Below, one piece after another: positions 23,358-38,510 of a stretch of 39,083 nt of DNA. Source of the stretch: a virus. The DNA lies in the IMG/VR virus record IMGVR_UViG_3300035661_000159, positions 1 to 39,083 of that record; one strand, given 5' to 3'. The notes below the pieces were generated by a model. The model searched no databases and was not told where the DNA came from. It saw only the letters and a program-made list of their open reading frames with translations. The stretch's first letter is position 1. Each line of letters begins with the position of its first letter. Both the position numbers and the translations under genes were made by a program.

Positions 23358-24803
23358 TTATCCCTTTGCTGGTTTCGGTTTCATTGGTGATGCGGCTGAC
23401 ATTTTTGGTGCACTTTCGTTAATTCTACTCTGTTCCTCTTCAAAAGTTACATCATCTTGGATTATTTCACCTGATTTTAGGTTTTCAAATAGAACATTCT
23501 GACTAATTGCACCAGCCTGCCAAGCAGATACTAGCGCGGTAATATCCACGGATGTTAAGGTAGCCGGAACAAAATCACGGTTAATCTCGCATTTAACCTC
23601 GCTTTTATCCCCCGCCCACTCAGACATCCATCCTAAAGAGCGGGAAATCCCCTTGCTAACAGACAATGCGACTTGCGACAAAAGACTTTCTTCACCCTTA
23701 CGATGTTGTGCCACAGCCTCCGCAGTTTCAACACTGGCACGCTGCGACTCAAGCATTCTCGCGCCAAGAATTGCCATTTCAGCCTTTTTGCTGTCCAGAT
23801 TGGTACGTAACGCATTAAACTGACTTGCCACCTCCACATACTGCGCACTTGAACCTTCGCGCGGCAGAATATTAGCAGATGACCCGCCAATATATATTTT
23901 TTCATCCTTTTCTTGGCTTGGGTTGTGTCCAAACACGAATAAAGTTGGCAGGCCAGAGAAATGACAGCCATGCTCATAATCCGCGCTCACCGTATAGTGA
24001 TGTAGGTTCATATTGACCAAATCAATCAAAGGCGGGGTATCTATAGCAGGGAGGTTGCTATCGTCAGAGATAAATACAAATGGGATGTAGCTCAAGGGCT
24101 GACCATTCATCACCGGTACGAAGTCAACCGGCACTCCATTGATTTTAACAATTTCGTCCTTGCCATGCTTGTCGATTCTGAAAAGCCGCTGGCGATAAAT
24201 GCCATTATCAAGACTTAGCACACGGTAGCGCGTTTCATATTCTTTTTCAAATTCGTTTTTCTGTCCGGCCTCGGAAGTTTCAATCAGAACAATCAAACTC
24301 AACACACGGTTGTTGTTTATGGTTGTTTCCATCCAGTTCAAAATTGCCTCAGCCTTATACATCTGAATTGAAGGGCGCACGCCAGCAGCCTCAACCTGCG
24401 CTTTGGTAGCACCCTCCAAGTTCGCGGCCTTCGGATAATCAGTAAGAAGCCCAATTCGGCCAACAGTTAAAACCTCTTCCGCCACGGTCATTGCAAGCTC
24501 GGTCAGGCTAGAACCTGAAAGGTCGATGTTTTCAGTTAGCGGTTCAATTTGTTTGGACACTTCAATAATCGGAGGCTTGCGGAACAACATTCCGCGAAGC
24601 CCAGCGATAGTTCGGTATGTCGCATTGAAAAATGGAGTACGGCCTTTACGTGCCTCGTAATCTTCGTCCAATTCATTACTAAGTTTTGGAAGATATTTAG
24701 CGCCACCTTCATGTATTGCGCATTCTCCAACAGAAACATCCCTGCACTTTTTCCACTTGCCCTGCATTGCAGCATAATCTTTGTGTGCCGTCTTTACTGA
24801 CAT
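23358..24803 (-). CDS. Portal protein (DUF4055 family)
   Basis: This 481-residue protein directly after the terminase has the DUF4055 portal layout: KDYAAMQGKWKKCRDVSVGE, YLPKLSNELDEDYEARKGRTP read in pieces, FFNATYRTIAGLRGMLFRKP, and a helical C-terminal crown region (MAILGARMLESQRASVETAEAV). The portal ring is the DNA channel and motor dock. The C-terminus is Pro/Lys-rich. It shares one base with the terminase stop region, giving tight coupling. Confidence 0.9.
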   Translation of the reverse strand: MSVKTAHKDYAAMQGKWKKCRDVSVGECAIHEGGAKYLPKLSNELDEDYEARKGRTPFFNATYRTIAGLRGMLFRKPPIIEVSKQIEPLTENIDLSGSSLTELAMTVAEEVLTVGRIGLLTDYPKAANLEGATKAQVEAAGVRPSIQMYKAEAILNWMETTINNNRVLSLIVLIETSEAGQKNEFEKEYETRYRVLSLDNGIYRQRLFRIDKHGKDEIVKINGVPVDFVPVMNGQPLSYIPFVFISDDSNLPAIDTPPLIDLVNMNLHHYTVSADYEHGCHFSGLPTLFVFGHNPSQEKDEKIYIGGSSANILPREGSSAQYVEVASQFNALRTNLDSKKAEMAILGARMLESQRASVETAEAVAQHRKGEESLLSQVALSVSKGISRSLGWMSEWAGDKSEVKCEINRDFVPATLTSVDITALVSAWQAGAISQNVLFENLKSGEIIQDDVTFEEEQSRINESAPKMSAASPMKPKPAKG

Positions 24804-26041
24804 TAAACGCCTCCCATTCTTAACCTCTGTATTGCCCCCGTTATAGGGAACGCATACGCAATAAAGTAACCGCTGCCATCAACCCAATCATCCACTGCTG
24901 GGTGGGTGTTCCACTTCTCAGGTTCGCCATTCGCATCATACCCTTGAGTTTCAAGCGCGTTGCATAAATTTGGACACTTATCAGTGTTTATTTTGAACCT
25001 ATCATGCGATATTAACCCATTATAAGCGTTTATCCTATCCCTTACGGGAGGATTTGAAGCCCAGCAATTAACCTGATAATTCGCCTGCTCTATGATTTGA
25101 ACGTCCGACTGACTGGCATTCGTCTTTCCAGATTGACCGCTCGCATCTGGGTATATGATAACTTTCTTCCCCTTGTATCTTGTGAGGTTATTCACGAAAT
25201 CCCTTGTGTCGTAACTCACAAATTCGTCCACAGCTATAGGCTCATTATTCTCAATAATATAAGTTACTGCACAACATCCCCCAATATTGAAGTCTAGGCC
25301 AATATGTAAAACCTTGTCATTCTCAGTAATAACACGGCTTGTATGGTGGCGCTTCCGGTCAAAGAAGTGATAAACCTTGTTTTGGTTAAGCGATACAAAT
25401 TCGCCATTTAAGTATAGCTCCGCCAGTATCGGGTCATAGTTTGCCTTGATATTGTCCGCATAGTCGGCAGGAAGAAACCGATTGCTGTATGTACTAGCCT
25501 TGAATAAAACATATCCGGCCTGCTGCTTCTTTACCCACTTTTCATAAACAAAGCCATTTATCCCTTGGTCTGGGGTAGTAACTAACCCTATAGTGTTCTT
25601 CTTGCCGCGCTTCTGCCGGTTCCGTTCCGTGATTTTACGCCATACAAGCGAAGCCTTATCAGCGCGAAGCGTGTCCAGTTCATCGCAGATAGAATGCGCA
25701 ACCTCATAAGCGATAATGCGCTCCGGTCTATCATACGAGCGAAAAATAATATTTCCATAGCCCTCAATCTTTATTGAATAATCACTTTTGTTTGTCTTGA
25801 ACTTAATCCCTAGCCGCGCCAAGTCAGCCTCAACCCCAACAATAGCGCGCAAGTTAATCAGGTCATAGGTTGGCATGTAATACGCGCCATTGGCGCCCCT
25901 GTCGTCCATTAACAGGTTTATCAATCGGAATGTCCCGCCCTGCGACTTGCCACTACCAAGCCCCCCAACGATAGCTGGGAATTGCTCCTTGCTGAAAATG
26001 AATTGCCTTTGAGGTTTTGATAACGGCAGGCCAATATCCAT
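24803..26041 (-). CDS. terL: Terminase large subunit
   Basis: This 412-residue packaging ATPase and nuclease has the Walker A loop GGLGSGKS at residues 26-33 and the Walker B HSICDELD with D120 and E121. The nuclease half has LHIGLDFNIGG, IYPDASGQ and DDWVDGSGYF, giving the acidic residues of the RNase H-like fold. It is somewhat shorter than many TerL proteins but complete at both ends. Its ATG overlaps the small subunit stop by one base (TAATG). No direct clue to cos or headful packaging is visible. Confidence 0.92.
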   Translation of the reverse strand: MDIGLPLSKPQRQFIFSKEQFPAIVGGLGSGKSQGGTFRLINLLMDDRGANGAYYMPTYDLINLRAIVGVEADLARLGIKFKTNKSDYSIKIEGYGNIIFRSYDRPERIIAYEVAHSICDELDTLRADKASLVWRKITERNRQKRGKKNTIGLVTTPDQGINGFVYEKWVKKQQAGYVLFKASTYSNRFLPADYADNIKANYDPILAELYLNGEFVSLNQNKVYHFFDRKRHHTSRVITENDKVLHIGLDFNIGGCCAVTYIIENNEPIAVDEFVSYDTRDFVNNLTRYKGKKVIIYPDASGQSGKTNASQSDVQIIEQANYQVNCWASNPPVRDRINAYNGLISHDRFKINTDKCPNLCNALETQGYDANGEPEKWNTHPAVDDWVDGSGYFIAYAFPITGAIQRLRMGGV

Positions 26042-26592
26042 TATCTATACGCCGCTACTTCTTCGTCTGTCATATCCTCGGCATTGATAACGCGAATAGT
26101 GGTTACATTTTGCTGTGCGTTATTGTTATTGATAACGGTTTCAGGGCTTTCCTTACCAAGAACGCCAGCACGCGATGTTGCAACAATATCCGAGCAGGCT
26201 TTGAACTCTGTCATGCTGAAATTTGAACGCGGTTTTCCTTGTTCATCTAGCCCTTGTTTTACCTTGGCTACCGCTATACCTGCAAAGTTACGCTGGATGT
26301 TATTGAAAAACGCAACGTCTTTCACCCTTTCTTCGACTAATTTGTTCACCGCGTTCACGGTCATTTCATTTTGCTCCGCAAGCTCTTGTTTTGCAGTAAC
26401 TAATTTGTTCACAACTTGGTGCATGGTAGGAATGCGGCCTTTGACAAGCTTGTTTATCTTTCCTATAGATACATTGTGCTTATTGGATAGGTCTCTCTGG
26501 GTCTTGGTGCCTCCGTGCTCACGGGAATAATTGCCTGTATCCCAATCGGCCAATATCTCTGTATCGGTACTCGGTTTCGTTACTCTAGCCAT
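26041..26592 (-). CDS. terS: Terminase small subunit
   Basis: This 183-residue protein precedes TerL. Its N-terminal half is a helix-turn-helix (TKTQRDLSNKHNVSIGKINKLVKG), which fits the DNA-recognition domain of small terminase subunits. A helical oligomerisation part follows (NKLVEERVKDVAFFNNIQRN) and then a short acidic C-terminus (INAEDMTDEEVAAYR) that would contact TerL. It starts three bases after the lipoprotein gene. The ring-forming role is from the family. Confidence 0.85.
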   Translation of the reverse strand: MARVTKPSTDTEILADWDTGNYSREHGGTKTQRDLSNKHNVSIGKINKLVKGRIPTMHQVVNKLVTAKQELAEQNEMTVNAVNKLVEERVKDVAFFNNIQRNFAGIAVAKVKQGLDEQGKPRSNFSMTEFKACSDIVATSRAGVLGKESPETVINNNNAQQNVTTIRVINAEDMTDEEVAAYR

Positions 26593-26595
26593 TTA

Positions 26596-26760
26596 TCAGT
26601 CCCTTTGAGTGCATACTGAGTAAATGCTTGTCATATATACATTGGTTACTGATTCAGTATATCCGGCAGCCTTGTATGCTTCGCGCATATCTTTATCGGT
26701 GTGTACGCAGGTGGTCTTGCATCCGGCAATCAAAACCATAAAAATCAATAGGTATTTCAT
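26596..26760 (-). CDS. 54-aa predicted lipoprotein beside the terminase genes
   Basis: The reading frame starts at ATG 26760 with a 4-base ATGA overlap to the ParB-like gene and ends three bases before terS. It opens MKYLLIFMVLIAGC, a short signal with the lipobox L-I-A-G-C, so Cys14 should be lipidated after signal peptidase II cleavage. The mature part (KTTCVHTDKDMREAYK) has two more cysteines. Small phage lipoproteins of this kind are often superinfection exclusion factors that block a receptor, or outer-membrane spanins. Here the function is inferred from the signal only. Confidence 0.78.
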   Translation of the reverse strand: MKYLLIFMVLIAGCKTTCVHTDKDMREAYKAAGYTESVTNVYMTSIYSVCTQRD

Positions 26761-27434
26761 TTTAATGCTCCCATTAGTTTTTCAGATGAAATATACCGCT
26801 CATAGGTTGGCACGCGCATTCTCTTTAAAATATCCTCTTTCTCTTGTCCATCACGACAAACGATAATAAAATAATGCTCTGCCTCACCATCTTCTTGCAT
26901 TTTCTCTTTTGATGCCGCTCTTGCAGCTTTAACCTCTTCAAGCCCTTGTTTTACCTCGGATGCAATCGCCGTGTCTGCAAAGCCTTCCTCAAACCGGCTA
27001 TCACCGTCAAACATTAGAACCACATCCAGCTTATCAAATCCCATTCCGTCAAAGCTTACGCCGCTCTCCAAGTTCAATTCAGCCAGCAAGTCGAGATTCC
27101 ATGAGCCGGATGCACTAGCGTTATTCAGGAATACCAGCATTTCAGCTTCGGCCTTTTCGTCCAGTTCAACCATGGCAACATCCAGCAGGTAATCGTTCTT
27201 GCCTTCCTTGTATTTTTCCAGAGAGTCCATTGAAGCAAGCCTTTGATGACCGCCTAGCAACCATCCTGTCGTTTTATTCACGATAAGGGGCTGTAGAAGA
27301 CCGACTTCCGACATTTTTTCTTTGAGTTTTTTCTTCGCTGAGTCAGTAATAACGCGAGGATTTTTTGGATGAAGCCGGATTGAACTGCGCAATACCCGTT
27401 CCATAGAGAATTTTTGATGCTTAGACACTTCCAT
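26757..27434 (-). CDS. ParB-like domain protein (IbrB-like)
   Basis: This 225-residue protein has an N-terminal ParB/Srx fold: IRLHPKNPRVITDSAKKKL, LLQPLIVNKTTGWLLGGHQR with the GGHQR signature at 61-65. The C-terminal part is acidic and helical, without the DNA-binding ParB middle domain. ParB-like proteins paired with a PAPS reductase-like ATP pyrophosphatase form the IbrA/IbrB pair known from E. coli and many phages. The upstream gene here is such a partner and overlaps it by 14 bases. It may bind or modify DNA near packaging. The biochemical role is unknown. Confidence 0.8.
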   Translation of the reverse strand: MEVSKHQKFSMERVLRSSIRLHPKNPRVITDSAKKKLKEKMSEVGLLQPLIVNKTTGWLLGGHQRLASMDSLEKYKEGKNDYLLDVAMVELDEKAEAEMLVFLNNASASGSWNLDLLAELNLESGVSFDGMGFDKLDVVLMFDGDSRFEEGFADTAIASEVKQGLEEVKAARAASKEKMQEDGEAEHYFIIVCRDGQEKEDILKRMRVPTYERYISSEKLMGALK

Positions 27435-28086
27435 GATTAAACTCCATTTTTAATGCTGATGCCTCAACAAAAGGGTACATCCCTTTTATTTTCTCAAAGT
27501 CAGAGGGGTAATGCTTTTTTATGATAGCCATATCTTCGGGCGCAAGGGAGCGGAAACTATGCCCGAGCAATGCGGCCTCCGGTGACACTTTCAGCTTGTG
27601 ATGACCGACATACTTAACAATATCTGCCTTACTCCATTCTGCCACAGGGTAAAACCGTCCCCTGTCCTTGTCGATTGCGCTTGATTTTTTTATCATAGCG
27701 CGGCGGATTATGGAATCGGCAATGCGCTCACCAGCCGCTATCCAGTGAATGCCAGTCTGCTCCCGCACATAATTGTACGTTTCAATTGGCTTGACTATTC
27801 GGACGCGGCTATCGGCCTTTGTGAAGGAGCCATACTTTAAAAAGTCGGCAACCTCAAAATGAGGCATCCGTAATATTTCAATCCCATACTTTTGTTCAGC
27901 GAAGCGAATGGCCGCCTCCTGAAAACTTAAGTCGGGTATCTGGTACATAAAATACGCTTCCACCCGCTTAAAATATTTGTGGCAAAGGTCTAGCGTTACA
28001 CAGCTATCCTTTCCAGCAGAAAAGGCAACAATCACGGAATCACTGACCCGTGATGCTGCTTTTACTGCATCAAACAAGTTCGGCAA
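27421..28086 (-). CDS. PAPS reductase-like PP-loop ATPase (IbrA-like), TTG start
   Basis: This 221-residue adenine nucleotide alpha-hydrolase has the PP-loop SAGKDS at residues 23-28 near the N-terminus, followed by SCVTLDLCHKYF and a KPIETYNYVREQTG segment. There is no ECGLH motif, so it is not a sulfate-assimilating PAPS reductase, and only two close cysteines are seen (C29, C35). The start is TTG at 28086, right after the upstream stop, with AGGGAGG as ribosome site. It pairs with the ParB-like gene downstream. ATP-dependent transfer to an unknown target, possibly DNA or tRNA, is inference. Confidence 0.8.
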   Translation of the reverse strand: MPNLFDAVKAASRVSDSVIVAFSAGKDSCVTLDLCHKYFKRVEAYFMYQIPDLSFQEAAIRFAEQKYGIEILRMPHFEVADFLKYGSFTKADSRVRIVKPIETYNYVREQTGIHWIAAGERIADSIIRRAMIKKSSAIDKDRGRFYPVAEWSKADIVKYVGHHKLKVSPEAALLGHSFRSLAPEDMAIIKKHYPSDFEKIKGMYPFVEASALKMEFNHGSV

Positions 28087-28194
28087 TTAGCCTCCCTTAC
28101 CACCAAAGCCCTTGGAACGAGCTAAGTTTGAAGCCATTTTACGGGTAACAGTGCGAGCACGTTGACCCATAGAGCGCTTTGACATTCCAGCCAT
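28087..28194 (-). CDS. Small basic protein at the head of the late operon (35 aa)
   Basis: ATG 28194 has an excellent GGAGGTG ribosome site, and the 35-residue product is very basic: MAGMSKRSMGQRARTV, then RKMASNLARSKGFGGKGG. Its stop is immediately followed by the TTG of the PP-loop ATPase gene, and its own 3' end supplies that gene's ribosome site. It may bind nucleic acid. It is the first gene after the bidirectional terminator at 28214. No family is recognised. Confidence 0.6.
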   Translation of the reverse strand: MAGMSKRSMGQRARTVTRKMASNLARSKGFGGKGG

Positions 28195-28213
28195 GATACA
28201 CCTCCAAAAAATA

Positions 28214-28233
28214 CACAGGGCAATTCGCCTGTG
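28214..28233. terminator. Bidirectional intrinsic terminator
   Basis: CACAGGGC and GCCTGTG pair around AATTC with a single bulge. On the - strand TATTTTTT follows the stem; on the + strand CTTTTATTTT follows it. It separates the ASCH gene from the late operon, so leftward transcription from 28.75 kb must read through, or a late promoter lies nearby. Confidence 0.7.
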
Positions 28234-28241
28234 CTTTTATT

Positions 28242-28709
28242 TTATACTATTTCGCACGTTTTCGGGTTGTACTTTATGACCCCCTGAGTAGGCGGGAAGT
28301 CGTAATAGCTTTGGCCGGTGCCAAGCCTTACCAGCGCGCTTTCATCAATCTCAAACAGTTTTAGCTTGCCGGTAACTGCATCAGGCCGGTAATTTATCCC
28401 CGTATGCTCAAGCACCCAAACGAATGCGCCCTTTTGATATTCAATAAAAGCGCCTCCCTCATATTCGTCTGCCTTTACCATTGGCCTCACATCCACCACG
28501 TTTACCTGCGCAAGCACACAACCGGCATACAGTTGGCGAATAATTGGCGGCTCAAAATTATCATCTGACCAAAATTCGGTTTTCGGTGCCGCGCTTGCAC
28601 AAATTATCAGCGCGCCCCTGTGCGATGTTTGCCAGCTTCGCACCTCCAGCGTTTTTATACCGTCAGCCACGGCTTGCGCGTATGGTTGTTTAATTGTTAA
28701 CGCCTTCAT
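28242..28709 (-). CDS. ASCH-domain protein (155 aa)
   Basis: It starts MKALTIKQPYAQAVADG with KTLEVRSWQTSHRGALIICAS, the classic ASCH signature (K-IE-R-W-T-RG-I-IHAS type). VLAQVNVVDVRPM and GAFVWVLEH complete the beta barrel. ASCH proteins bind RNA or modified nucleosides, and some are amidohydrolases; in phages they are common early genes of unknown role. It is transcribed leftward, alone, between a promoter that faces the early operon and the bidirectional terminator. Domain call is sure; substrate is not. Confidence 0.85.
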   Translation of the reverse strand: MKALTIKQPYAQAVADGIKTLEVRSWQTSHRGALIICASAAPKTEFWSDDNFEPPIIRQLYAGCVLAQVNVVDVRPMVKADEYEGGAFIEYQKGAFVWVLEHTGINYRPDAVTGKLKLFEIDESALVRLGTGQSYYDFPPTQGVIKYNPKTCEIV

Positions 28710-28811: not shown

Positions 28812-28841
28812 TTGACAGATTAAAAAATAAGCTGCTATAGT
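28812..28841 (+). promoter_or_regulatory. Early rightward sigma-70 promoter 1
   Basis: A perfect TTGACA (28812-28817) lies 18 bases before TATAGT (28836-28841). AACCCGTT (28793-28800) lies upstream and the inverted copy AACGGGTT (28859-28866) just downstream of the expected start, suggesting an operator pair. It drives the + strand early operon from 28884 onward. Confidence 0.8.
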
Positions 28842-31887: not shown

Positions 31888-32143
31888 TGCACTTTATAAA
31901 CAGTCGTGCGACCAGTGCGGCAAGCCTAATAATGATAAAGATGAGCTACTTTGTAGCAAGTGCCGCGACAGTTTAAAAAATTATTACCCATGCGGCATTG
32001 GTACAGACGGCAAAATTAATAAGCGCCTAACTTATAGCCCAATGACACGCACGAACGCCGAAAATTATTTAAAGCTATATAGGCCGGTAGAATGGCGAAA
32101 GTGTGAGGCGATACCACAACTCGCTAACAACTCGACACCATAA
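31874..32143 (+). CDS. Small zinc-finger-like phage protein (89 aa)
   Basis: ATG 31874 is preferred because AAGGGGGC precedes it; the longer frame from 31820 would lie inside the previous gene. The N-terminus has QSCDQCGKPNNDKDELLCSKCRD, split as CDQC and CSKC, a complete four-cysteine zinc knuckle. The rest is basic (KINKRLTYSPMTRTNAENYL). It is the last gene of the early operon and overlaps the convergent RusA gene by 20 bases. Function unknown. Confidence 0.65.
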   Translation: MSTYNALYKQSCDQCGKPNNDKDELLCSKCRDSLKNYYPCGIGTDGKINKRLTYSPMTRTNAENYLKLYRPVEWRKCEAIPQLANNSTP

Positions 32144-32480
32144 CAGACACCCCACCGCCCTTTATTGGGTGGGCTATGCTTGCATGTATTGCCACTATTT
32201 GCGCATCGTTACCATATGCGACACCCTGCAACCCGTCACAGATAGACTTTAGGCAATTATCAAGGTCTAATCTTACCTTGCTTGCCGCACCCGTGGCCGT
32301 AGTGCGTGGGTGCAACTCTATTTTAACATGCACGCTACCAGACAGCACCGGCAAGCCGTGCATTATGTATATTGCAGACGTTACACGCTTAAATTCACGC
32401 CCCTTCGCTGATAGTACAGTGCGCCCTTTAAAATGCCTGTAATATGTATTATTGCTGGGCGGGTAGGGTAATAAAATCAA
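32124..32480 (-). CDS. rusA: RusA-family Holliday junction resolvase
   Basis: This 118-residue endonuclease resolves four-way DNA junctions in replication and recombination products. It opens with LPYPPSNNTYYRH, and the catalytic region KVRLDLDNCLKSICDGLQ gives D72 and D74 plus K78, with D92 in YGNDAQI. These match the D70, D72, K76 and D91 set of E. coli RusA. It is the last gene of the leftward replication operon, the place of nin-region resolvases in lambdoid phages. Its 3' end overlaps the convergent early gene. Confidence 0.93.
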   Translation of the reverse strand: MILLPYPPSNNTYYRHFKGRTVLSAKGREFKRVTSAIYIMHGLPVLSGSVHVKIELHPRTTATGAASKVRLDLDNCLKSICDGLQGVAYGNDAQIVAIHASIAHPIKGGGVSVMVSSC

Positions 32481-32650
32481 TTGAAACCCCCTTCAATTAC
32501 AACCCCCATTTTTTTACATAGAATAGCCCAAGATTGGTAGGCATCTAAGCGCCTTTTTGCGCATGAGCGAAGCCCTCCGCCAGAACAATACCAAATTTTT
32601 TTATACTTAAAATATTCTGGACTTATTGCTTCCATTGTTTTGGGTTCCAT
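32477..32650 (-). CDS. Small hypothetical nin-region protein (57 aa)
   Basis: I chose ATG 32650 because AAGGAGAAG lies just upstream. The product MEPKTMEAISPEYFKYKK, then IWYCSGGGLRSCAKRRL and YQSWAILCKKMGV, is a small basic helical protein with three cysteines. The start lies inside the end of the upstream gene and the stop overlaps rusA by 4 bases. Function unknown. Confidence 0.55.
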   Translation of the reverse strand: MEPKTMEAISPEYFKYKKIWYCSGGGLRSCAKRRLDAYQSWAILCKKMGVVIEGGFN

Positions 32651-32829
32651 AATTTTCTTCTCCTTATGTTCTGCATTGCTCCCAGCTTCCAATCCGAGCA
32701 ATTTATCAGGGTGATAATATTTTTATCCTCACGATTTTTGTTATTTTTGCTCCAACACTGGCCGATAGAGGCTTTTTTTTCGTCAACAACACAAAACTCG
32801 CACGATATACAAGAAACATTTTTGCTCAT
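32623..32829 (-). CDS. Cysteine-rich small nin-region protein (68 aa)
   Basis: The N-terminal 44 residues hold five cysteines (SCISCEFCVV; GQCWSKN; INCSDWK). This arrangement resembles short phage zinc-binding proteins with a C-x2-C-x2-C start and a later NCxxW. The start overlaps the stop of the YbcO-like gene (ATGA), and its end overlaps the next start by 28 bases. Function unknown, possibly metal-dependent nucleic acid binding. Confidence 0.55.
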   Translation of the reverse strand: MSKNVSCISCEFCVVDEKKASIGQCWSKNNKNREDKNIITLINCSDWKLGAMQNIRRRKLWNPKQWKQ

Positions 32830-33143
32830 AGTAATTTAATCAATCCAATATCCAGCCAATATTGCTGAGTTCTGAAAATTCCTTCCGCGTGAGCTAATTT
32901 TACCTCTTCTGCGTCCATTTTAGTCGTTTTCCTATCCACCTCAAGATGGCAATCCGAGCAGCAAAACGCGGCCATGAAGTCGGATGTTTTATAACTTGTT
33001 CCTCCCCCATTTTTATGCGCCAGAATTGTTGTTTCAGGGTTCCAATTGCATATATTTGGCAGCCTGACATTACATTCCATACCTCTTGCCGACTTTCTAA
33101 GCTTGGAAGACTCATGCCTTGGGCTTTTCATAATAATACTCAT
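32826..33143 (-). CDS. YbcO / DUF1364 HNH-like nuclease
   Basis: This 105-residue protein contains KLRKSARGMECNVRLPNICN followed by PETTILAHKNGGG and FCCSDCHLEVD. It is the DUF1364 pattern, with C24, C32 and the C62-x2-C65-H66 cluster. YbcO of the DLP12 prophage belongs here and has an HNH-like nuclease fold. Such genes lie in the nin region between replication and rusA genes. It may process recombination or packaging DNA. The start overlaps the previous stop; an ATG four codons later is possible. Confidence 0.82.
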   Translation of the reverse strand: MSIIMKSPRHESSKLRKSARGMECNVRLPNICNWNPETTILAHKNGGGTSYKTSDFMAAFCCSDCHLEVDRKTTKMDAEEVKLAHAEGIFRTQQYWLDIGLIKLL

Positions 33144-33352
33144 TCCCCGCTTAAAATCCGAAGTTTAAGGCGCTCAACAAGAACTAATATGCGCCCTATA
33201 TCGCCAGTGGATGATGCTAGGAAAATCTCCCCATCTTGGTCATACCCCATAACTGCAACCTCAGTCAAATTGCTATCCAAAGCATGTTTTAGAACAATTT
33301 CAGGCTCAATATCAAGCTTCGTATTGCAGTTCAATTTTATTACATTCCCCAT
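33140..33352 (-). CDS. Small conserved phage protein (70 aa)
   Basis: The protein has EIVLKHALDSNLTEVAVMGYD then QDGEIFLASSTGDIGRILVL and VERLKLRILSGE. This alpha/beta pattern, with MGYDxDGExxxASS and a C-terminal LVERxKLxLL helix, is a common small phage family found in replication and nin operons. Its function is not known. The start ATG 33352 follows a 21-base gap after the DUF1367-like gene. Confidence 0.68.
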   Translation of the reverse strand: MGNVIKLNCNTKLDIEPEIVLKHALDSNLTEVAVMGYDQDGEIFLASSTGDIGRILVLVERLKLRILSGE

Positions 33353-33373
33353 TTTATCTATCCCCTAAGCAGA

Positions 33374-33835
33374 CTACATTAACTTGGCCATTTCAGCCAC
33401 TCTTTCGGTCGTTTCTTCCGGCCAGTAAAACTTAACTATGTGCGCACACATAAGCTTGTAAACCTCACTAAATTCCTCTTCACTCATGCTTTCAAAACTC
33501 AGGCTTCTTGGAATGTATTGCGTGACCATTCCACACCCCTCAACCTTGAATGCAAATTCATCGCACTCAATCATCCCCTCGCGCTGCAACCGCTTCAAGA
33601 CTTTGTGCGGAAGCATTCCCTCAAAGCCCTCTATATTCTCGGCAACAAGCTGGCCAAGGCCATGCGCCAGTCGCCAAAATTTCGGATTGCGCGGCTTTGT
33701 GATTGTTCCGGCAACAATTTCACCAATGGCATATTTCCTATCCCGCAAGCGCAATTTTGTATATTCGTCAGCAGGCTCAAATCCGCCCTTGACCACGCGA
33801 AACATTAGCTTTTCAGGCTTGGATGGCTTGCTCAT
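33374..33835 (-). CDS. DUF1367-like nin-region protein (153 aa)
   Basis: This 153-residue protein has LRDRKYAIGEIVAGTITKPRN then KFWRLAHGLGQLVAENIEGF. That resembles the DUF1367 family, in which a VG-V-A-I-KPRN-KF block is followed by helices. The later RSLSFESMSEEEFSEVYKLM is also characteristic. These proteins occur in the lambdoid nin region near NinB and DUF1364 genes, and a role in recombination is suspected. It overlaps the P-like gene by 4 bases. Confidence 0.72.
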   Translation of the reverse strand: MSKPSKPEKLMFRVVKGGFEPADEYTKLRLRDRKYAIGEIVAGTITKPRNPKFWRLAHGLGQLVAENIEGFEGMLPHKVLKRLQREGMIECDEFAFKVEGCGMVTQYIPRSLSFESMSEEEFSEVYKLMCAHIVKFYWPEETTERVAEMAKLM

Positions 33836-34467
33836 TTTGAAATTCTCAAAACTTCCGGCACAGTATTGACGCTGGAAAACTCAAGCAGCGCACTACCTTT
33901 TGCACCGTTCTCAAGCACCAACATGGCCGCCCCCTTGTTTCCAATCAGAACAGCAGGGGCAATTTTGCGATTCTGTTCCGTGTTCGTAGCCTCAAAGCGC
34001 CCCAGCAATTTAGCAGGATATTCAACCTCGCGCCCAGCCGCTTTAAGTCCACGATAGCGATTTTCAAACTCTTTTGCGACAAAAGGCCATTCATGGTCAG
34101 TTTTCGATTCAAGCATCAGCCATCCGCCCATATCGTGCAGCACGCGATGAATTAACGGGTCATCAAATACAACCGTGTCATTCGTCCCAATGACGCGCAC
34201 AGTCTTGTCAACTTTAGACCATGCCGCCATTGCCGCATCATGCGCGGAGCCTTCCATCATTTTAACAATATCGGCAATCTTCGGCATAAACTGGCCGTTC
34301 TCGGTATTCCCAAGGTGCCGCCCAATAGCATCACGCACAGCAGGCCAATCGTAATTTTTCAGGCCAATCCAGTACAGAGCTACCAGCGAATCGGATGGTT
34401 TTTTCCCGTACTGTTCCGACACAACTTGCATTATGTCAACAAAATCATCGTAATCTGCTTGTATCAT
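33832..34467 (-). CDS. P-like replication protein (DUF6475-like; helicase loader candidate)
   Basis: This 211-residue protein follows the O-like initiator with an ATGA overlap, the position of lambda P. The N-terminal half (YWIGLKNYDWPAVRDAIGRHL; NGQFMPKIADIVKMMEG) resembles helicase-loader N-terminal domains that count layers and recruit DnaB. The middle has VVFDDPLIHRVLHDMGGW, typical of a phage family labelled DUF6475. Loading the host helicase at the origin is inferred from position and weak similarity. Confidence 0.65.
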   Translation of the reverse strand: MIQADYDDFVDIMQVVSEQYGKKPSDSLVALYWIGLKNYDWPAVRDAIGRHLGNTENGQFMPKIADIVKMMEGSAHDAAMAAWSKVDKTVRVIGTNDTVVFDDPLIHRVLHDMGGWLMLESKTDHEWPFVAKEFENRYRGLKAAGREVEYPAKLLGRFEATNTEQNRKIAPAVLIGNKGAAMLVLENGAKGSALLEFSSVNTVPEVLRISK

Positions 34468-35204
34468 TTTCCACCCCCTTCACCAAAAAGTCGCTTACGC
34501 GCTGCCTCACGAACCTGCAAATTGTCATTCTGACTTCCAATAACCGACAAAGCGGTTGACCCTTTCGGTTCAAACAAGCCCTGCCATCCAGCAGAAGCGG
34601 AATTAAATAACGCCTGAGCATAATCCCTGCCTTCGGCTTTCCACTGCTCAAGCTTTGCAACCTGAGCCATCTTTTGCGCTGCAATCATTTTTTTGCCTTT
34701 ACGGGTTTGCATCCACAAATCCCAATGTGATTTATCAATCCAATCTGGGAGGATGAAGTCCTCGCTTGTTTCTTTCTTAAATGCTTTAGTGTTTAAATGC
34801 TTGTTTAGTGGTCGGTCGCTGGTCGCTAGTTGGTCGCTAGTTGGTCGCTTGCTGGTCGCTTGCTGGTCGATTTGCTGGTCGCTATCGCTTTGGTCATCCT
34901 GATATTCACTATAATTAACAATGGTATAGATGGTAAAATGGTTGGTCGATTCGCTGGTCAATATATTCAATTCATGCAATCTGTCCAAGCAAGTGCGCGC
35001 CTGTCTTTCAGTTACTCCAATTGCCTCTGCCAGCTTGTGACGGCCAGAAATGTACTGGCCACGCTTTAGCTCTGTCATCCCGACACGACAAGACTTGTGC
35101 GAAGCTTTAAGAAGCAAGTACATAAAAAGCGCCAGCGTTGAGTGCATTTGTAGCAATCCACTATCTTCAAGCTTGCGCCAAACTTTTACATAGCCACGGT
35201 TCAT
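34464..35204 (-). CDS. O-like replication initiator with winged helix and internal origin
   Basis: This 246-residue protein opens NRGYVKVWRKLEDSGLLQM, as in phage replication initiators. A winged helix follows at residues about 50-85 (RHKLAEAIGVTERQARTCLD). A Gln/Ser/Asp-rich linker (residues about 100-135) is the translation of the 11-bp iterons. The C-terminal part is basic and helical (DLWMQTRKGKKMIAAQKMAQ). In lambda the origin also lies inside O. ATG 35204 has AAAGGA and overlaps a short upstream ORF by ATGA. The initiator should bind its own iterons. Confidence 0.82.
   Translation of the reverse strand: MNRGYVKVWRKLEDSGLLQMHSTLALFMYLLLKASHKSCRVGMTELKRGQYISGRHKLAEAIGVTERQARTCLDRLHELNILTSESTNHFTIYTIVNYSEYQDDQSDSDQQIDQQATSKRPTSDQLATSDRPLNKHLNTKAFKKETSEDFILPDWIDKSHWDLWMQTRKGKKMIAAQKMAQVAKLEQWKAEGRDYAQALFNSASAGWQGLFEPKGSTALSVIGSQNDNLQVREAARKRLFGEGGGK
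34809..34960. repeat. Replication origin: 11-bp-spaced TGGTCG iterons
   Basis: On the + strand TGGTCG begins at 34809, 34820, 34831, 34842, 34853, 34864, 34876 and 34943, with TGGTCA at 34891 and 34955. The first six are exactly 11 bases apart, two as TGGTCGCTAGT and two as TGGTCGCTTGC. An AT-rich tract separates and follows the outer sites (34903-34940 and 34961-34975). The array lies within the initiator gene, as in lambda. Eleven-base spacing puts each site on one face of the helix. Confidence 0.82.
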
Positions 35205-35308
35205 AAAATAAGTCCTTTAGGAAGCACCCAAATTGGGGTCGAAGTTACCCGTAGGCAGGCCGAAGGCCGCGAAAGGCTCCCAAAGTGAATGCTTCCTGAA
35301 AAACTCAT
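35201..35308 (-). CDS. Possible 35-aa leader peptide ahead of the initiator gene
   Basis: ATG 35308 opens 35 codons (MSFSGSIHFGSLSRPSACLR to VLPKGLIL) whose stop overlaps the initiator start as TTATGA. It covers the structured leader, so ribosomes moving through it would change which hairpins can form. The ribosome site AGGTAATTTAAT is weak, and codon evidence is limited. It may be only an open frame. Confidence 0.35.
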   Translation of the reverse strand: MSFSGSIHFGSLSRPSACLRVTSTPIWVLPKGLIL

Positions 35309-35352
35309 ATTAAATTACCTACGTTTCGGCCTTCGACAGCCTACTTGAATAA
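35220..35352 (-). promoter_or_regulatory. Structured leader with two competing long pairings
   Basis: On the - strand GTAGGC-TGT-CGAAGGCC (35352-35336) can pair with GGCCTTCG-GCCT-GCCTAC (35268-35251 region) over 14 positions. GGAAGCA (35296-35290) can also pair with TGCTTCC (35226-35220), right beside the initiator ribosome site. The second pairing crosses the first, so they compete or form a pseudoknot. CCCAA/TTGGG (35228-35238) and GGCC-GAA-GGCC (35258-35268) are further local hairpins. This explains the 191-base gap 35205-35395. Confidence 0.55.
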
Positions 35353-35376
35353 AAACCCAACATATTTCTATGTTGG
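35351..35376 (-). terminator. Intrinsic terminator after the Cro-like gene
   Basis: On the - strand CCAACATA-GAAA-TATGTTGG forms a perfect 8-bp stem followed by G and TTTTT. It lies 20 bases after the Cro-like stop, in the position of lambda tR1 between cro and the replication genes, so the downstream genes need read-through. Confidence 0.78.
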
Positions 35377-35395
35377 CAAAAACCCGCAAAAGAGG

Positions 35396-35614
35396 CTAAT
35401 CAACGCGGGGTAAAATTGTATCTAGTTCCCATTCTTTCGGAAACTTTATTTTAGGCTTGGCAGCCCTTAGTCTCATTAGGATAGTTCGTTGCTGCTTGCC
35501 GATTATATCCTCCGGCAATCCTTGGATACTCATTCGATGCGAATAGCCAAGACGTTTCGCTGAACTTTCTGCGGTTCCGCCTGTAATTTTTATCAATTCA
35601 AATTTATTTATCAT
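35396..35614 (-). CDS. Cro-like DNA-binding protein (72 aa)
   Basis: This 72-residue basic protein has a helix-turn-helix-like N-terminus: ELIKITGGTAESSAKRLGYS, matching the GG-x4-A-x2-LG pattern of Cro/YdaS-type regulators, then a LPEDIIGKQQRTILMRLRA helix. It is the first gene leftward of a divergent promoter region and precedes a terminator and the replication genes, as cro does in lambda. The start ATG 35614 lies only nine bases after the -10 box and has no ribosome site, so its mRNA is nearly leaderless. Cro identity is inference from size, motif and position. Confidence 0.65.
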   Translation of the reverse strand: MINKFELIKITGGTAESSAKRLGYSHRMSIQGLPEDIIGKQQRTILMRLRAAKPKIKFPKEWELDTILPRVD

Positions 35615-35623
35615 AGTGGCCGC

Positions 35624-35653
35624 ACTTTAGCACAATAAATAAACTTTGTGCAA
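35624..35653 (-). promoter_or_regulatory. Leftward promoter of the Cro-like / replication operon
   Basis: On the - strand TTGCAC (35653-35648) lies 18 bases from TAAAGT (35629-35624). Transcription should begin about 35617, a few bases before ATG 35614. Its sequence from TTGTGC to CTAT is shared with the ASCH promoter at 28.75 kb. Confidence 0.68.
35630..35651. promoter_or_regulatory. Operator candidate GCACAA-N10-TTGTGC
   Basis: A perfect inverted repeat with 6-base half-sites (35630-35635 and 35646-35651) and a 10-base centre lies between the -35 and -10 boxes of the leftward promoter. The GCACAA half-site also abuts the -10 box of the ASCH promoter (28748-28753). The Cro-like product is the obvious candidate ligand. 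Confidence 0.62.
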
Positions 35654-35674
35654 ATTTATTTTTTAATAAACCTA

Positions 35675-35703
35675 TTGCATATTAATTATTCATGTCGTAT
35701 AGT
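35675..35703 (+). promoter_or_regulatory. Rightward promoter of the recombination operon
   Basis: TTGCAT (35675-35680) lies 17 bases before TATAGT (35698-35703). The start of transcription near 35710 excludes the upstream ATG at 35692 and supports ATG 35740. It is back-to-back with the leftward promoter, like lambda PL and PR brought together. Confidence 0.72.
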
Positions 35704-35739
35704 TCAACTCTGTTCAATAATTATACACAAGAGGCCGCC

Positions 35740-36552
35740 ATGACGGACAATCAATTAACAGTAATAGACAGAAACCTACCGGAAATCACTCCAATGGGAA
35801 TGCTGCAGACAGCCATTGAAAGGGGTGCAAGCATTGAAAGTATGACGGCATTAATGGCTCTGCAAGAGCGCTGGGAAGCGAACGAAGCGCGCAAGGCATA
35901 CGCAAAAGCCGTAAGCGCGTTTCGTTCAGAGGGCTTATCAGTATCAAAAGATAATACTGTGCGATACAAGACTGACAAGGGAATAACTGAATATACCCAT
36001 GCAACGCTCGGCGCAATTTGTAGTGCAATTAACCCAGCGCTGGCCGCGCATGAGCTTTCTTTCCGCTGGGAAACTATGCAGGAAGAGGCGAAAATAAAAG
36101 TTACCTGCATTTTAATGCACTCCCTTGGGCATAGTGAAAGAACATCATTGTCATCCGGCGCAGACACTAGCGGCGGGAAAAATAATATTCAGGCCATTGG
36201 CTCTACTGTTGCATATTTGCAACGGTACACACTATTGGCTATTACTGGTACATCAACGAAAGATGCAGACGATGATGGTCAAAGCTCAGAGTCCCAAAAT
36301 GGGATAAGCCAAGAGCAGGTAGCAGCAGAAAGCAAGAAAAGAGAGTTACCACCATGCACGGATGTAAAATTCAATGCGCTAATGGCTGATAAGGTTGACC
36401 CAGAAACAGGTGAAATTCTTACCACTGGCCGCAAAAAACTAATTACATCAGGAGAGCGAACCGCCGATGAAATTATTGCCGCGATAAGCACAAAATATAA
36501 GCTTTCGGCAGAGCAATCTGCTACAATAAAAAAATTGGAGAAAACAGCATGA
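35740..36552 (+). CDS. erf: ERF-family single-strand annealing protein
   Basis: This 270-residue recombinase anneals complementary single strands. The start at 35740 has the AAGAGGCC leader and lies after the promoter start. The ERF domain is clear: ALMALQERWEANEARKAYAKA, SKDNTVRYKTDKGITEYTHATL read in pieces, GAICSAINPALAAHELSF, and DTSGGKNNIQAIGSTVAYLQRY. The C-terminal tail is charged and variable. Its stop overlaps the start of the YqaJ nuclease (ATGA), forming a Red-like annealase and exonuclease pair with SSB downstream. Confidence 0.92.
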   Translation: MTDNQLTVIDRNLPEITPMGMLQTAIERGASIESMTALMALQERWEANEARKAYAKAVSAFRSEGLSVSKDNTVRYKTDKGITEYTHATLGAICSAINPALAAHELSFRWETMQEEAKIKVTCILMHSLGHSERTSLSSGADTSGGKNNIQAIGSTVAYLQRYTLLAITGTSTKDADDDGQSSESQNGISQEQVAAESKKRELPPCTDVKFNALMADKVDPETGEILTTGRKKLITSGERTADEIIAAISTKYKLSAEQSATIKKLEKTA

Positions 36553-38063
36553 AAATTTTAAACCTGATTCAAGGCTCACCCGAATGGCACGAACACCGTT
36601 CTAACCAAAATATTCTGAATGCCAGCGATGCACCAGCGATGATGGATTGCTCTGAATATGTGACATATGACGAACTGCTACATATTTACGCGACAGGTGA
36701 GCGCCCACCAGAAAACCCAGCAATGGAACATATTTTTGCGAAAGGCCATCATTTTGAAGCCCTGTGCCGACCACTGGCAGAGTCAATTTTGGGCGAAGAA
36801 TTGTGGCCGCTTACCGGAGTAAATGGAGAGCTTTCAGCTTCTTTTGACGGCGTTACAGACGCGCTTAAAGATACCTTTGAACACAAGATGCTGAATAAAA
36901 AACTGAGAGCCGTTACCTGCATTGAAGAATTGCCATTGCAGTACAAGGTTCAGATGGAAGTTCAATTTATGGTAAGCGGGGCGAAGAAGTGCCTATTTAT
37001 GGCCTCGGATTGGGATAAAGACGACAATTTTCTTGAGAAAATTCAATTCACTTACCATGCAGACGAAATTCTGCAAGAGCGCATAAAAAAGGCTTGGGAA
37101 TTATTTAAGCTGAATATCAAAAATTATGCGCCGAAAGAAGTAAAAAAAGTCGCCATGGCAGAGGCTATTATTGGCCTACCATCCTTATTTGTTACGGCCA
37201 AGGGTGAGGTAACAACAAGCAATATGCCTCAATTCGGTCAGGCAACATCAGTGTTTTTGGCGAAAATTAATACAAACTTAGTTTCGGATGATGATTTTGC
37301 TACTGCCAAGGCAATCGCGGCCACATGCAGGGATACTTTCGACAAGCTGGCATTGACGCAAGAAGGAATGCTTGCACAGACCGTTACCCTTGGCGATGCG
37401 ATGCGCCAAATTGACGATTGGAAGCAACAATACCGCGCAAAGGCTCTTGAACTCGAAAATATGGTGAAGTTTGAAACTGCACGCCGCCGCGCTGAGATTG
37501 AACAAGAACATAAAAGCCTATTTGCATCCTATAAGTCAGAGCAGCAAAAGAAATTAACTTTGGTAAGGATTCCTGAAATTGATTTAAAGCTCACCCAAGC
37601 GATGAATGGCAAAAAGTCTATCAAGGGCTGGCAAGATGCAGCAAGCGCCGCCCTGAGAGCCGCAAAATCAGAATTAGATGCCATTGTCGAAAGAGTCGGG
37701 AACAACTTAACCGGCTTGCGCCTATTGAATGAACAAGCAGAGATTATGTTTTTATTCTCTGATTTGCAGGTTATCGCTTTTCGGGAGCCGGAAGAGTTTT
37801 CTATGCTTGTTACATCACGAGTAGCCGTGCATGAGGCAAGAAAAGAGGCCGAAAAACTGTCAGAAAAACACATTTCTGAGCCAGCAATAAAATCACAAGA
37901 AGCAGAGGTTTTACCCCCCACTGTTTCAGTAAGTGTTAGCATTCAAGACGTTAAAATCCCAAGCAGGGTTGAGTTAATCAATATTATTGCAGATGCAAAA
38001 GGCGTGAGCATTAGCGTTGCACGCGATTGGCTCCGTCACCATTTCAACAACGACACCGTATAA
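36549..38063 (+). CDS. YqaJ-family recombination exonuclease with long C-terminal coiled coil
   Basis: The N-terminal 200 residues are a YqaJ/lambda-exonuclease fold: QGSPEWHEHRSNQNILNASD, the active-site set D100 with E111 and K113 in FDGVTDALKDTFEHK, and PLQYKVQMEVQFMVSG. It should resect double-strand ends for the ERF annealase. Residues about 260-400 form a coiled coil (AKALELENMVKFETARRR) like DUF1351-type proteins, and the last 40 residues a small helical domain. The fused 504-residue length is about twice a minimal exonuclease. A fusion of nuclease and second domain is seen directly. Confidence 0.88.
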   Translation: MKILNLIQGSPEWHEHRSNQNILNASDAPAMMDCSEYVTYDELLHIYATGERPPENPAMEHIFAKGHHFEALCRPLAESILGEELWPLTGVNGELSASFDGVTDALKDTFEHKMLNKKLRAVTCIEELPLQYKVQMEVQFMVSGAKKCLFMASDWDKDDNFLEKIQFTYHADEILQERIKKAWELFKLNIKNYAPKEVKKVAMAEAIIGLPSLFVTAKGEVTTSNMPQFGQATSVFLAKINTNLVSDDDFATAKAIAATCRDTFDKLALTQEGMLAQTVTLGDAMRQIDDWKQQYRAKALELENMVKFETARRRAEIEQEHKSLFASYKSEQQKKLTLVRIPEIDLKLTQAMNGKKSIKGWQDAASAALRAAKSELDAIVERVGNNLTGLRLLNEQAEIMFLFSDLQVIAFREPEEFSMLVTSRVAVHEARKEAEKLSEKHISEPAIKSQEAEVLPPTVSVSVSIQDVKIPSRVELINIIADAKGVSISVARDWLRHHFNNDTV

Positions 38064-38072
38064 GGAAAAATT

Positions 38073-38510
38073 ATGTCAGTGAATAAAGTAATTATCATAG
38101 GCCGTTTAGGTAAAGACCCAGAAGTGCGCTACATGCCGAATGGGGAGGCTGTAGCAAATTTTAGTTTAGCCACCACGGAAAAATGGAAAGATAATTCGGG
38201 AGAAAAACAGGAAAGAACAGAATGGCATAACCTCGTTGCATACAGAAGAATTGCCGAAGTTATCGGAGAGTACGTAAAAAAAGGTGCAATGCTCTATATT
38301 GAGGGTAAGTTGCAAACGCGCAAATGGGAAAAAGACGGCGTGACCCGCTACACGACAGAAATTATTGTCGGTGAAATGACTATGCTCGGCGGGAAGCGTG
38401 AAGAGTCTGACAAGGCCGCTCCGATTAGTGCTCAGAATACTGCCCTGATTATAAAAGAGGCTAGGCCAGTGCAAAGCTTTGATAACTTTGATGACGATAT
38501 TCCATTCTGA
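38073..38510 (+). CDS. ssb: Single-stranded DNA-binding protein
   Basis: This 145-residue protein has the OB fold of bacterial [24 protein letters not shown] read in pieces, [31 protein letters not shown], and [16 protein letters not shown]. The C-terminus is FDDDIPF, the acidic tip that binds host replication and repair proteins. It is shorter than host SSB (no long linker). It follows the exonuclease by nine bases, completing the recombination module. Confidence 0.95.

Follow-up and report, generated by a model that had tools for sequence, protein, structure and literature searches.

Related systems and the gene order at the locus

Gene pairs that join a PAPS-reductase-like protein to a ParB-like protein are known from E. 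coli, where IbrA and IbrB have been reported to activate gene expression, that of the prophage eib genes, and where IbrA carries an extra C-terminal domain, DUF3440. Comparable partnerships occur in DNA modification. DndC and SspD are PP-loop proteins of the PAPS reductase family, and DndC has a ParB-superfamily partner, DndB. In DpdA/DpdB, which place 7-deazaguanine in DNA, a ParB-like NTPase aids a base-modifying enzyme (PMC12839542), DpdB being a ParB-like ATPase that takes part in the insertion of preQ0 into DNA (PMC12839542, PMC10853773). Phages also carry ParB-partnered modification genes, such as ParB–N6/N4 methyltransferase fusions, ParB with Mom in phiEf11 and ParB with TET/JBP in MementoMori, in which a related ParB domain and a single catalytic partner are encoded ahead of TerS and TerL.

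The locus studied here, in a 39,083-nucleotide window that is a 39-kb IMG/VR virus record, resembles each of these systems and differs from each. It has the related ParB domain and the pre-terminase position of the phage modification genes, but its catalytic partner is a PP-loop ATPase accompanied by an ASCH protein and a basic peptide. The catalyst of DpdA/DpdB is a TGT-type enzyme, whereas that of the window is a PP-loop protein. Unlike DndC/DndB and SspD, it stands in a phage late operon and belongs to a family without conserved cysteines; unlike E. coli IbrA/IbrB, it combines a short PP-loop form with ASCH in that late-operon setting.

On the minus strand, the order of transcription is ASCH, basic peptide, PP-loop, ParB-like, 54-aa open reading frame (ORF), TerS-like and TerL (Table 1). 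The PP-loop gene starts with TTG immediately after the stop codon of the peptide and overlaps the ParB-like gene by 14 bp. The initial annotation had placed a PP-loop, ParB-like and basic-peptide trio directly ahead of the terminase. All three ORFs are found, on this strand and upstream of TerS and TerL; however, the 54-aa ORF and the TerS-like gene intervene before TerL, and the ASCH gene, on the same strand further upstream, had been overlooked although it is part of the set. The 54-aa ORF shows no conservation among relatives, and a Pfam search with the TerS-like protein returned no family above the cut-off.

Table 1. Features of the late-operon locus in the window
Feature	Coordinates	Strand	Description
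ASCH-domain protein	28242..28709	-	155 aa; opens the conserved set; Pfam ASCH 8.4e-9, phrog_3193 4.5e-24
Hairpin with T-run, possible terminator or attenuator	28213..28234	.	Gap between ASCH and basic peptide
Basic peptide, C-terminus GFGGKGG	28087..28194	-	35 aa, pI 12
IbrA-like PP-loop protein, CysH fold	27421..28086	-	221 aa; no ECGLH, no conserved Cys
IbrB-like protein	26757..27434	-	225 aa; ParB/Srx domain ~9-146 and small C-terminal domain ~185-225
54-aa ORF, lipoprotein-like	26596..26760	-	Hydrophobic N-terminal stretch and Cys
Small-terminase-like (TerS-like) gene	26041..26592	-	183 aa; assigned by position and similarity to relatives
TerL (terminase large subunit)	24803..26041	-	412 aa; Pfam Terminase_6N and 6C, PHROG terminase

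The hairpin with a T-run is one of 6 such sites in the region, compared with 3.1 (s.d. 1.8) in shuffled sequences, so the evidence for it is weak. Its position between the ASCH and peptide genes means that ASCH may be transcribed separately or attenuated and that the late transcript may begin either with ASCH or with the peptide gene. A strong plus-strand sigma-70-like site (11/12) at positions 28812–28841 faces a divergent block of small genes on that strand, across from the late operon, and a phage recombination gene set, RusA, YbcO, ERF, YqaJ-like and SSB, occupies positions 32124–38510.

The encoded proteins and their recurrence as a module

The PP-loop protein matches Pfam PAPS_reduct (4e-10), and its predicted model (pLDDT 95) has the fold of CysH, FAD synthase, CysD and TilS. 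The nearest structures, FAD synthase, APS/PAPS reductases, TilS and CysD, are tied at Z 13–14; for CysH/APR the comparison spans 161–179 residues at 3.5–4.1 Å (VIA Z 13–14). As in CysH, the PP-loop and second-half motifs are present: across 90 aligned sequences the PP-loop motif and a second conserved block (G119, D124, R128 and P147) are retained, the invariance of the former being partly imposed by the search pattern and that of the other conserved residues not. What separates the family from CysH is the lack of ECGLH and its catalytic cysteine. The motif is found in 0/103 non-redundant PP-loop relatives, in agreement with the initial description of a PP-loop ATPase lacking it, and no conserved Cys column occurs in the 90 aligned members; Cys29 of the window, beside the PP-loop, is Ile in 87/90, at a position partly fixed by the search pattern. 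With neither ECGLH nor a conserved cysteine, the chemistry would lie nearer to adenylyl transfer, as in FAD synthase, CysD and TilS, than to reduction or sulfur relay. The earlier label of an IbrA/IbrB-like pair fits the adjacency of the PP-loop and ParB-like genes, but this is resemblance only: Pfam gives no match to the extra IbrA-type domain, or to any further domain, in the 221-aa protein at E values up to 0.1, and the real unit includes ASCH. Some phages have two PP-loop genes, the second placed in tandem after ParB (loci L010:5577–6311, L067 and L091).

For the ParB-like protein, the match to Pfam ParB_N is sub-threshold (0.04), that to PHROG ParB families reaches 2e-19, and residues 9–146 of the model align with CDP/CTP-bound ParB structures at Z ~12, so that the N-terminal NTP-binding fold of the ParB CTPases is recognizable. 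The model has no helix–turn–helix (HTH) after residue 146, the remainder being a long helix modelled with low confidence plus a small C-terminal domain, which upholds the earlier view of a ParB/Srx fold without its DNA-binding domain. The family differs from ParB CTPases in this respect and in the ENxQR motif, present in 1/72 members and absent in 71/72, which makes ParB-type NTP hydrolysis uncertain.

Most related loci have the ASCH gene ahead of the PP-loop gene. In YqfB-type ASCH proteins, which are ac4C amidohydrolases, the active-site pattern is GxKTxTxR; it occurs in 0/66 ASCH members here, 59 of which have GxKxx[E/Y]xR, and we therefore rejected a YqfB-like amidohydrolase. ASCH has also been described as a modified-base reader (PMC12839542, PMC10853773). 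The 35-residue basic peptide proposed earlier is a genuine coding sequence: two relatives differ from it mainly at third codon positions, and close relatives are 62–67% identical to it over 24 aa. Elsewhere, the gap between the ASCH and PP-loop genes is filled by ORFs that are again basic (median pI 11.4, antisense ORFs 8.7, p=3e-7). Lactobacillus phage LR1 differs in that its basic ORF, of 141 aa, separates the PP-loop gene from ParB.

When viral and genome contigs were scanned, 139 further loci emerged; a single-sequence scan of the genome contigs had given no matches. Viral contigs being redundant, 90%-identical copies were removed for the non-redundant counts. A succession of ASCH, a small basic ORF, PP-loop, ParB, TerS and TerL recurs across some 100 non-redundant relatives of the locus. 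The module occurs in Bacteroidota, Bacillota, Pseudomonadota, Actinomycetota and Verrucomicrobiota, carried by their phages or prophages, among them the cultured Lactobacillus phage JNU_P7 and Bacteroides phage BS-TP2. One such match, in Shigella phage Henu10 (OQ791282.1, 20892–21545), is identical, coordinates included, to that in Riemerella phage PT15, which makes the host label of Henu10 doubtful.

After the PP-loop gene, the small C-terminal domain is encoded at 101/103 non-redundant loci and ParB at 73/103, and 83 of the 101 PP-loop/partner gene pairs overlap or lie at most 20 bp apart. Among loci with enough flanking sequence, ASCH accompanies 56/65 with ParB but 2/21 without it (p=2e-10). 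Across 35 loci, the pairwise evolutionary distances of PP-loop, ParB and ASCH correlate with one another at 0.73–0.86 (PP-loop/ParB 0.86, PP-loop/ASCH 0.75) and with that of TerL at r 0.32–0.40, and the partial correlations given TerL stay at 0.70–0.83 (permutation p=0.001). Because the mutual correlations far exceed those with TerL, the three genes behave as one module, which travels independently of the terminase. ParB is not obligatory, as a second clade of 28/103 loci (for example, L113, L063 and L014–L016) has the PP-loop protein with the IbrB C-terminal domain only and lacks ParB and, almost always, ASCH; clustering in this clade gave no conserved upstream partner beyond the C-terminal domain and packaging genes. 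A literature search returned no description of the ASCH–PP-loop–ParB set.

Genes occupying the place ahead of the terminase

To relatives selected by terminase, with the window TerL as seed (40 non-redundant sequences with at least 2.5 kb upstream), we applied hidden Markov models (HMMs) built for this analysis, with calls confirmed by Pfam on selected members. ParB is present in the slot ahead of the terminase in 12/40 and missing in 28/40. A methyltransferase, Mom or TET gene occupies the slot in 9/12 loci with ParB versus 0/28 without (p=8e-7), and gene maps of the other three ParB loci show TAGT (L268) or a P-loop/GNAT protein (L288 and L300). Thus, in phages with related terminases (41–68% identity), the place of the window's module is taken by a ParB relative with a DNA methyltransferase, Mom, a TET/JBP oxygenase or a TET-associated glycosyltransferase. 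These occupants comprise ParB–methyltransferase fusions (L247, TerL 68%; L251, 59%), ParB with Mom (L249, L250 and L256, TerL 58–59%) and ParB with TET/JBP (L254, TerL 61%) and, at greater distance, TET (L290 and L293), TAGT (L268) and a PAPS-type PP-loop protein with ParB and Mom (L295). The two P-loop/GNAT genes (L288:3537–4625 and L300:3035–4171) encode a P-loop ATPase with a GNAT domain beside ParB, ahead of the terminase, and the product in L300 is weakly Mom-like.

ParB relatives in annotated phages have similar neighbours. That of phiEf11 lies beside Mom (Pfam Mom 2e-45), that of Javan630 is fused to an N6/N4 methyltransferase, and that of MementoMori lies beside a TET/JBP oxygenase (Pfam Tet_JBP 2e-7) annotated as TGT. 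The annotation of this MementoMori protein, gp2 (L160:642–1595), as a queuine tRNA-ribosyltransferase is likely to be a misannotation. Among 64 non-redundant viral ParB relatives, a sample biased, unlike the terminase-selected one, by seeds that included such proteins, HMMs place 56 in fusion with or adjacent to a methyltransferase, C5-methylase, Mom or PP-loop gene, and Pfam explains several of the other 8. One ParB–Amidoligase_2 fusion (L226:3275–4660, 2.5e-54) may be a further enzyme, borne by ParB, that modifies DNA or peptides. ParB with TET/JBP was reportedly described by Iyer et al. in 2013, and the link between ParB and modification may itself be partly known already.

In other lineages the slot behaves differently. 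The TerL-selected Bacteroidales-type lineage has ASCH, PP-loop and ParB in 44/51 loci, so that the module is nearly fixed; in one Bacteroides-type locus whose TerL is 95% identical to its sisters (L343:2488–4424), a ParB–DUF4417 fusion and a CdiA_C-domain protein replace ASCH, PP-loop and IbrB. In the Lactobacillus lineage, our HMMs recognized no modification gene in the module-less relatives L325–L327, and a Pfam scan of one neighbour gave no match; no swap was found, and this lineage thus gives no support. The swap is clear only in the terminase lineage of the window.

Candidate functions and their consequences

The contents of the slot in sister phages imply that the PP-loop protein is most likely an uncharacterised DNA-modification enzyme with a ParB-type partner. 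Judged from sequence, the ASCH protein, basic peptide, PP-loop protein and ParB-like protein probably form a late-operon cassette with which the phage modifies its DNA. The earlier suggestion that the genes act on DNA to be packaged draws support from the same exchange. These functional statements rest on association, and the shared ParB partner could mean common targeting for another purpose.

One alternative is a role in transcription, with the PP-loop and ParB-like proteins jointly switching on the packaging and structural operon. The location at the head of the late genes, the binding of DNA and NTP by ParB folds and the precedent of E. coli IbrAB all agree with a late-gene regulator; we nevertheless consider it unlikely, given that sister phages replace the slot with a methyltransferase, Mom or TET, that 28/40 same-terminase relatives have none of these genes and that the ParB-like protein has no HTH domain.

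Alternatively, the PP-loop enzyme might act on a protein, activating or conjugating the basic peptide with its Gly end or a different protein of the virion, as has been suggested for PP-loop enzymes of the Cap9 type. The peptide gene adjoins the PP-loop gene, a Cap9 profile matches weakly (0.03), and a crude pick of basic ORFs ends in Gly in 18/41 loci. The same figure shows that this ending is not general, and the basic ORFs differ strongly in length and C-terminal end; the idea that a conserved C-terminal Gly-Gly is the activated tail of a carrier appealed in some loci but was dropped on this count. As the slot swap, moreover, indicates DNA, we regard modification of a protein or peptide as improbable.

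A sulfur modification of DNA, phosphorothioation or another, by a DndC/SspD-like protein would be compatible with the shared superfamily of the PP-loop proteins, with the ParB superfamily membership of DndB (PMC10853773) and with a weak BrxP match (1.8e-5 over 24 residues). C280 of DndC, however, is essential for its Fe–S cluster (PMC11662687), and the 90 aligned members have no conserved cysteine. Dnd-type sulfur insertion, and with it the backbone change that the initial annotation had entertained, is accordingly disfavoured and very unlikely. A true PAPS reductase, an auxiliary metabolic gene for sulfate assimilation as such genes are customarily annotated (PMC10434257), was rejected as barely credible on both motif and gene context, with ECGLH in 0/103, no conserved cysteine and linkage to ASCH and ParB.

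For the DNA-modification reading, which we prefer, a mechanism can be outlined. On the model of DpdB and DndB, the ParB-fold protein would bind NTP, load or clamp onto replicated phage DNA and bring the PP-loop enzyme to it. With ATP, that enzyme would adenylate either a base or a small molecule subsequently attached to the base, and a nucleophile would displace AMP to leave a mark on the DNA before packaging. Recognition of the base, as target or once modified, probably falls to ASCH, which has a PUA-like fold, and the basic peptide is perhaps an accessory, DNA-contacting subunit. The benefit would most likely be the shielding of phage DNA from host restriction, and the protection from host nucleases that the initial annotation had put forward is plausible. 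We propose only tentatively that this amounts to a novel DNA modification, in which ATP-dependent adenylation of a base or joined group by a Cys-free PP-loop enzyme is guided by a ParB-fold NTPase and read by ASCH, and which would differ both from phosphorothioation and from the synthesis of deazaguanine precursors.

Such genes are regularly labelled as auxiliary metabolic genes of the cysH type; should their products modify DNA, claims about phage sulfur metabolism based on them need revision. The exchange also suggests a rule, namely that a ParB gene just ahead of the terminase marks a slot for DNA-modification enzymes and that its unknown neighbours are candidates. Given that one Bacteroidales phage lineage has almost fixed the module and that it extends over five phyla, gut phages could commonly bear a new DNA mark.
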